Under the pieces are notes generated by a model, which searched no databases, had not been told where the DNA came from, and worked only from the letters and a program-made list of their open reading frames with translations. From Kovacikia minuta CCNUW1 (GTDB taxonomy: Bacteria; Cyanobacteriota; Cyanobacteriia; Leptolyngbyales; Leptolyngbyaceae), in NCBI RefSeq assembly GCF_020091585.1, contig NZ_CP083582.1, positions 3,658,001-3,722,000 of the forward strand: a stretch of DNA of 64,000 nt, read 5' to 3'. Numbering within the stretch: position 1 is the stretch's first letter; the number at the start of each line of letters is the position of its first letter. A program made the translations under genes and the position numbers. Shown piece after piece: positions 34,823 through 36,293 of the stretch.

Positions 34823-35170
34823 ATGCCGTTTACAATTGACTCGGCTCGTGGCATTTTCCCTGGTACTCTGGCTGCTGATGCAGTACCGGCAACAACTGCT
34901 AGATTCAATCAGTTAAAGGCTGAAGACCAACTGGCACTGATCTGGTTTGCTTACCTGGAAATGGGCAAGGCGATTACGATCGCCGCTCCCGGAGCAGCGA
35001 GTATGCAGTTTGCCGAAGCAACATTAAACCAGATCCGGCAAATGTCTGCTCGCGAGCAAACCCAGGTCATGTGTGATCTGGCAAACCGTGCTGATACGCC
35101 CATTTGTCGCACCTATGCCACCTGGTCTGCCAACATTAAGCTGGGTTTCTGGTATCAGCTTGGAAAATAG
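34823..35170 (+). pseudogene. ocp: Orange carotenoid protein, N-terminal fragment ended by an in-frame TAG
   Basis: Encodes residues 1-115 of OCP, the blue-light-activated carotenoid protein that quenches phycobilisomes. The start MPFTIDSARGIFPGTLAADA, preceded by AGGAG, is canonical. Carotenoid-contacting Trp41, Tyr44 and Trp110 are all in place. The frame stops at TAG (35168-35170), at a position that is Trp, Leu or Phe in homologues (GxWMxQG context), so one base change from TGG or TTG explains it. The next codon is ATG and the frame continues unchanged to a normal C-terminus. The break falls inside the N-terminal helical domain (residues 1 to about 165) and not at the interdomain linker, so it does not mimic natural HCP/CTDH pairs. 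Confidence 0.93.
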
Positions 35171-35782
35171 ATGGATCAGGGATTGGTTGCGCCAATCCCA
35201 GAGGGCTATAAACTGTCTGCCAACGCTGCTGCTGTACTCCAAGCCATCAGAGAACTGGAGTCGGGTCAGCAAATCACGGTCTTGAGGAATTCTGTGGTGG
35301 ATATGGGCTACGACCCTAGCAAACTGGGGAGCTATACCAGAGTTGCCGAGCCTGTTGTGGTGCCTAAGGAAATGTCGCAGCGCACCCAGGTCACGATCGA
35401 GGGGATCGATAACCCAACCGTATTGAGCTACATGAATAATTTGAATGCGAATGATTTTGATGCCCTGATTCAGTTATTTGTACCCGATGGTGCGTTGCAA
35501 CCCCCCTTCCAAAAGCCGATCGTGGGCAAGGATGCTGTCCTCCGGTTCTTTAGAGAAGAATGCCAGAACCTTAAGTTAATGCCAGAACGAGGAGTTGCCG
35601 AACCCGCGCAGGATGGATACACCCAGATCAAAGTAACAGGGAAAGTACAAACCCCCTGGTTTGGCGCAGGGGTTGGAATGAATATGTCCTGGAGATTTTT
35701 ACTCGATCCCGAAAACAAGATTTTCTTTGTGGCAATTGACTTACTGGCGTCTCCAAAGGAACTCTTAAACCTGGTTCGTTAA
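35171..35782 (+). pseudogene. ocp: Orange carotenoid protein, remainder after the stop
   Basis: Same frame as the upstream fragment, beginning at the ATG directly after the TAG. It carries the last part of the N-terminal domain (VAPIPEGYKLSANAAAV), the linker, and the whole NTF2-like C-terminal domain (YMNNLNANDFDALIQLF, PPFQKPIVGKDAVLRFFREECQ-type sequence, VQTPWFGAGVGMNMSWRF, ending DLLASPKELLNLVR). With the stop codon read as an amino acid the protein is 319 residues, the normal OCP length. Termination-reinitiation at the adjacent ATG could yield a separate C-terminal protein, but its N-terminal domain would be incomplete. Confidence 0.93.
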
Positions 35783-35960: not shown

Positions 35961-36293
35961 ATGCAAGCAGCAGATACAGATTGGTCTAAAACAGAGAAGA
36001 AAGTTGCCCAAGCAGCCTTCAAAACAGCCTATGAGCGGGAGGTCAGCGCGTTGATTAAGGACGTGCGGGATCATTCAAGTACGATCGTCGAACTGGATGA
36101 CCTCTGGCGTCTCCATGATTTCCTAAGTGCCAGGAGACATGACATTGATGGCAAATACGATTATCGATATTCAGTGCTGATCTTTGTCTTTGCTCGCCTG
36201 CTTAAGGAGGGATGGCTCCAGCTTGGTGAACTAGAAGGTTTAGAGAGAGACAAACTTGCCAAGATATCATCTTTAGCACGGATGCAAGAATAA
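35961..36293 (+). CDS. frp: Fluorescence recovery protein
   Basis: 110 residues from the ATG at 35961. FRP binds the C-terminal domain of photoactivated OCP, speeds its return to the orange form and detaches it from phycobilisomes. Conserved core sequence is visible: LDDLWRLHDFLSARRHDIDGKYDYR, SVLIFVFARLLKEGW and LEGLERDKLAKI. Position right after ocp on the same strand is the usual arrangement. The gene is intact even though ocp carries a stop. It ends 13 bp from the convergent methyltransferase gene. Confidence 0.93.
   Translation: MQAADTDWSKTEKKVAQAAFKTAYEREVSALIKDVRDHSSTIVELDDLWRLHDFLSARRHDIDGKYDYRYSVLIFVFARLLKEGWLQLGELEGLERDKLAKISSLARMQE

Follow-up and report, generated by a model that had tools for sequence, protein, structure and literature searches.

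An in-frame TAG interrupts ocp1 of Kovacikia minuta CCNUW1: probably a recent null allele

The gene for the orange carotenoid protein (OCP) is the main light-protection gene of a cyanobacterium. In Kovacikia minuta CCNUW1, an OCP1-type gene at positions 34823-35782 (forward strand) of the window, i.e., the whole stretch of 64,000 nucleotides that was analysed, is open throughout except for a TAG at codon 116. Most probably, this ocp1 is a recent nonsense (null) allele generated by a change of TGG to TAG. A preliminary description of the locus had listed a null mutation, stop-codon readthrough, a two-chain OCP formed by termination-reinitiation and a base-call error side by side without ranking them. 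Here, the null allele is ranked first with a base-call error as its main rival, while there is little positive support for readthrough or a two-chain OCP.

An OCP1-type gene divided at codon 116

Translation of ocp1 gives 115 residues, the TAG, another 203 residues and a terminal TAA in a single frame, i.e., 318 sense codons plus TAG or 319 positions, which bears out the earlier claim of two same-phase frames parted only by this stop (Table 1). The second frame opens with the ATG of Met117 and encodes the rest of the N-terminal domain, the linker and the C-terminal NTF2 domain. Accordingly, the Pfam profile Carot_N is shared by both halves, with profile positions 3-102 on the first chain and 104-151 at the start of the second, followed by NTF2. 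With an X placed at the stop, the frame can be aligned over 319 positions with 6pq1 and 7qcz, two OCPs of solved structure. One stop among 319 conserved positions is more than chance, and the two frames are plainly one interrupted gene.

Table 1 Features of the ocp1-frp region (window coordinates)
Feature	Position	Strand	Basis
AGGAG, Shine-Dalgarno-like, 9 bases 5' of the OCP1 start codon	34809..34813	+	read from sequence
OCP1 first frame up to and including TAG; encodes residues 1-115 of the carotenoid-binding N-terminal domain	34823..35170	+	translation; Pfam Carot_N 3-102
In-frame TAG, codon 116; TGG (Trp) in 29/29 relatives	35168..35170	+	translation; comparison with relatives
Second frame, same phase, residues 117-319	35171..35782	+	translation; Pfam; alignment with relatives
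Putative 9-pair RNA hairpin, starting 8 bases 3' of TAG	35179..35199	+	folding comparison, 110 OCP sequences
frp, fluorescence recovery protein, intact	35961..36293	+	Pfam FRP full length; only genome match

Read through the TAG, ocp1 scores above the Pfam curated cut-off for both Carot_N and NTF2, while under the standard code no single translated chain carries both domains. Residues W41, W110, Y203, W279 and W290, to which the OCP literature assigns carotenoid contacts (with Synechocystis numbering of the C-terminal domain off by two), do not vary among the 28 sequences that make up alignment A1. By pairwise identities rather than a tree, the gene is closer to the OCPs of relatives (74-92%) than to a paralogue on replicon C2 of the same genome (63%). 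Its partner frp is also present: as previously described, it stands intact downstream, where the match spans the entire 99-position profile of Pfam FRP, and it is the sole FRP match found in the genome. As a gene, the locus is a normal OCP1, whereas the stop is probably not a feature in its own right when regarded as a genetic device.

The position of the break was also placed correctly by the preliminary description, which had put it inside the N-terminal domain and thus apart from the known HCP/CTDH split, in which the genes are divided at the interdomain linker. Codon 116 lies within Carot_N and, according to a structure model with a mean pLDDT of 73, within a predicted helix of residues 103-118; two further helices of the N-terminal domain (133-143 and 147-159) are predicted in the same model past the break.

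The genome of 8.56 Mb in three contigs holds additional OCP-related genes that lay beyond the view of the preliminary description. An intact second OCP of 319 residues is encoded on C2 (629696-630652), and two HCP-like genes and one CTDH-like gene are found elsewhere. The most similar PDB entries of the C2 protein are 8pyh and 8pzk, and it is matched at 73-78% on plasmids of Nostoc sp. C052, Aulosira laxa NIES-50, Chroococcidiopsis sp. CCNUC1 and Gloeothece citriformis PCC 7424. Some of these plasmid genes are located near high-light stress genes, one of them near ftsH4, a response regulator and a desaturase, and the C2 gene itself stands after FtsH-like and PII-like genes, as read from their translations. 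Close copies (69-83%) are also present in other genomes of the family, namely G011, G289 and G272, and as a piece in G016. OCP1 is reported to be the FRP-regulated type, while OCP2 and OCPx recover without FRP (PMC10172135); the C2 gene is a likely OCP2 candidate. As a separate observation, psbA-type genes gave nine matches.

Origin and age of the stop codon

Comparison of codon 116 with related genomes, as the preliminary description had proposed, gave TGG followed by ATG in 29 of 29 OCP loci of relatives, this number comprising search matches with a locus, apart from a few more full-length matches without one. The ocp1 stop is therefore most simply explained by one G-to-A transition at 35169. 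The same TGG followed by ATG is found in the C2 paralogue. Among the best 80 of 346 named OCP loci, some of them records identical to the relatives' loci, 72 carry Trp, 5 Leu and 3 Phe as residue 116, and internal stops are absent from all 80. Both comparisons fit the earlier expectation that TGG or TTG at this codon would make the gene an ordinary OCP. The same description had drawn attention to the ATG directly following the TAG. This adjacency is real, but it is no extra coincidence: since Met117 is the same in all 28 aligned sequences of A1, a stop at codon 116 will have ATG next to it in every case. According to this alignment, the ATG following the ocp1 TAG is the inherited Met117 codon, not a new start.

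Apart from the stop, the gene does not display any decay. Relative to the closest relative (G013, OCP protein 92% identical) and with five outgroups, 9 amino-acid changes were assigned to the lineage of ocp1 itself and 13 to that of the relative, with 3 unplaceable. At the same time, 143 codons differ only synonymously between the two genes, 48 in the first part and 95 in the second, and synonymous change far exceeds amino-acid change in both halves. Besides codon 116, only residue 50 is rare compared with the 29 relatives at a well-conserved column. Neither half thus shows signs of relaxed constraint. A nonsense pseudogene is characterised by a premature stop with intact homologues elsewhere, which is the case for ocp1, but also by relaxed constraint or further lesions, and here no second stop, frameshift or excess amino-acid change was found; this absence is expected if the break is recent. 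Had ocp1 been inactive over the whole branch, hundreds of amino-acid changes would be expected by a rough estimate, which would date the break to roughly the last 1-2% of the branch; since synonymous sites are near or at saturation relative to the closest relative, this age is to be read as approximate. Either the break is very recent, or the stop is a base-call error.

The partner gene leads to a similar conclusion. Among 42 genomes of the family, some of which are drafts, an OCP match (E 1e-60) was obtained in 35 and an FRP match in 29. All seven genomes without an OCP match (G010, G012, G015, G017, G021, G022 and G295) also have no FRP match, so loss of the system recurs, while six genomes (G001, G003, G008, G016, G025 and G027) have an OCP match without FRP. 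As OCP1 and FRP have repeatedly been lost together, yet frp is intact in K. minuta, the ocp1 break should be recent.

In the class as a whole, an OCP match at E 1e-60 was found in 259 of 388 genomes, and among the matches listed the only stop was that of the window's own gene. The first set of 58 genomes contains one other broken OCP, in G009, where two frames meet near residue 143. This Leptolyngbyaceae-type OCP1 (C353, 18915-19870) is frameshifted in a draft assembly and possibly represents an error. Additionally, G041 holds an OCP copy with its C-terminal part in another frame.

Broken genes were also sought more broadly by a codon-usage search for stops flanked on either side by 60 or more open codons, a scan that misses frameshifts and short pieces. 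Candidates numbered 34 in 784 kb of the K. minuta genome and 16 in 400 kb of the closest relative, and most of them, inspected by eye, are gene ends adjoining another gene or antisense frames. By this inspection, breaks within one protein were limited to OCP, a response regulator and transposases in the 784 kb, and there were none in the 400 kb of the relative. The response-regulator gene (L237, 5167-5460; C1 7104957-7105460) carries an in-frame TAG and has lost its C-terminus, its frame ending after 174 codons compared with about 250 in the intact genes of relatives; it is an ordinary pseudogene.

Consequences of the stop and competing explanations

If ocp1 is indeed a null allele, a normal gene would have been hit recently by a single nonsense change that turned codon 116 from TGG into TAG, and translation would end inside a helix of the N-terminal domain. 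The resulting chain of 115 residues would be devoid of the final portion of the carotenoid-binding domain, including the two predicted helices past the break, and of the whole light-sensing C-terminal domain; it should fold poorly, should not bind carotenoid stably and would presumably be degraded. OCP1-type, FRP-regulated quenching of the phycobilisome would then be missing, whereas residual OCP-type quenching might be provided by the intact second OCP on C2 and carotenoid handling by the HCP-like and CTDH-like genes. The intact frp would persist because the time for its decay has been insufficient. We infer three elements of this course of events: a genuine TAG, the lack of any working product and a take-over by the second OCP. 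Several points speak against the null allele: frp and the second half of ocp1 show the full preservation expected of genes whose product is still being made; the potential hairpin 3' of the stop is unusually stable; and no other genome among the class-survey matches listed carries a stop in this gene, so that this particular lesion is not known to be habitual in the family.

The main alternative is a base-call or assembly error, in which case the true codon would be TGG and the gene an ordinary intact OCP1. All of ocp1 but one base looks fully constrained, frp is intact, and a single wrong base is credible in an assembly of 8.56 Mb. However, this assembly consists of three contigs with a completeness of 100, base substitution is not the commonest error of long reads, and the other in-gene stops in 784 kb, mostly judged by eye, were confined to genes prone to decay, among them the truncated response-regulator pseudogene. 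An error of this kind is hence considered rather unlikely, albeit a serious competitor of the null allele.

A further group of explanations takes the stop as tolerated or even used, either by hairpin-stimulated UAG readthrough yielding low and possibly regulated amounts of OCP1, or by a two-chain OCP made via Met117, so that the dose or reversibility of quenching would be set at translation. Even taken together, we regard these as improbable. For readthrough, an amino acid would have to be inserted at the UAG often enough to give useful full-length OCP1, perhaps with the help of the hairpin. Apart from the preservation of both ocp1 halves and of frp, this would agree with the hairpin at 35179-35199, which ranks first in stability among 110 OCP segments (98 distinct) at this site (-15.9 versus a median of -8.0 kcal/mol), a stability matched by only 20 of 2000 random synonymous versions. 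Moreover, the base after the stop is A, and U in this position is reported to lower readthrough in E. coli (PMC5289835). Yet the hairpin was examined after the fact in one sequence and is not present in this form in the closest relative, which ranks 54 of 110, and no unusual stability is seen for the 131 bases surrounding the stop, since 64 of 200 shuffled versions are at least as stable (z -0.35). The stop is found in 0 of 29 relatives and, being so recent, has had little time for domestication. Additionally, a suppressor tRNA was sought by a tRNA family search, in which 150 of 599 first-look candidates were scored and 99 matches obtained. These were inspected with ARAGORN, two uncalled ones carrying the loop triplet GTG and being taken as His. 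The anticodon CTA occurs in 0 of the 99 matches, tRNA arrays included, which bears on cognate decoding of UAG and not on near-cognate readthrough. Readthrough of ocp1 to a useful extent is therefore judged highly improbable.

Two long tRNA arrays, each with 33 tRNA genes called and in largely the same order, were observed at about 2775793-2779301 on the main contig C1 (L199) and about 1067852-1071868 on the second contig C2 (L200). They recall the 26-gene trn operon on a megaplasmid of Anabaena PCC 7120, which is reported to answer translational stress (PMC10272220). Separately, genome-wide recoding of TAG was considered and rejected, the share of TAG among terminators being about even: within 784 kb of the genome, it terminates 80 of the 267 open frames that reach 300 codons or more, and 139 of 432 if the limit is set at 200 codons.

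Coupled termination-reinitiation, as described in bacteria and archaea (PMC6728339), would let the ribosome stop at the UAG and restart at the adjacent AUG, giving a second chain of residues 117-319 that either pairs with the first chain or serves on its own as a CTDH-like carotenoid carrier. While the spacer-free TAG-ATG in principle favours restart and the same junction also divides two real-looking genes here (L167) and in the closest relative (L192), few long frames end in a direct TAG-ATG junction (1 of 432), the ATG is the inherited Met117 and did not arise as a start for this purpose, and the junction would break a predicted helix and splits Carot_N in a way unlike HCP/CTDH, which makes this the least probable of the readings considered.

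Significance and relation to known OCP systems

No report of a broken OCP gene, be it a pseudogene, a premature stop codon or a frameshift, was found in the literature as represented by titles and the beginnings of abstracts, and the literature consulted likewise yielded no report of translational control of photoprotection via full-length or two-chain OCP. If ocp1 is a null allele, K. minuta CCNUW1 offers a small natural experiment, as frp and a plasmid-type OCP are present in the strain but a working OCP1 is not. With it, one could ask whether photoprotection can rely on the second OCP and how quickly FRP is lost after OCP1. Should full-length or two-chain OCP be made after all, this would represent an apparently unreported translational control of photoprotection. 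The case also advises caution in scoring OCP1 as present in this genome by homology alone.

Compared with the known OCP1/FRP system, ocp1 of K. minuta is alike over its full length (92% to the closest relative) and in both domains, and frp follows closely downstream, an arrangement shared with G013 and other relatives; it differs by the TAG at codon 116, owing to which no single full-length chain results under the standard code. The second-type OCP of plasmids is more distant, the broken gene being only about 63% identical to that type. With an HCP/CTDH pair, ocp1 would share the presence of two chains if its second half were made, but such pairs are split at the linker, whereas the ocp1 break falls within the N-terminal domain and in a predicted helix. 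Finally, ocp1 resembles ordinary nonsense pseudogenes in that its stop derives from one transition, and is set apart from them by a reading frame that, on either side of codon 116, is as yet free of further decay.
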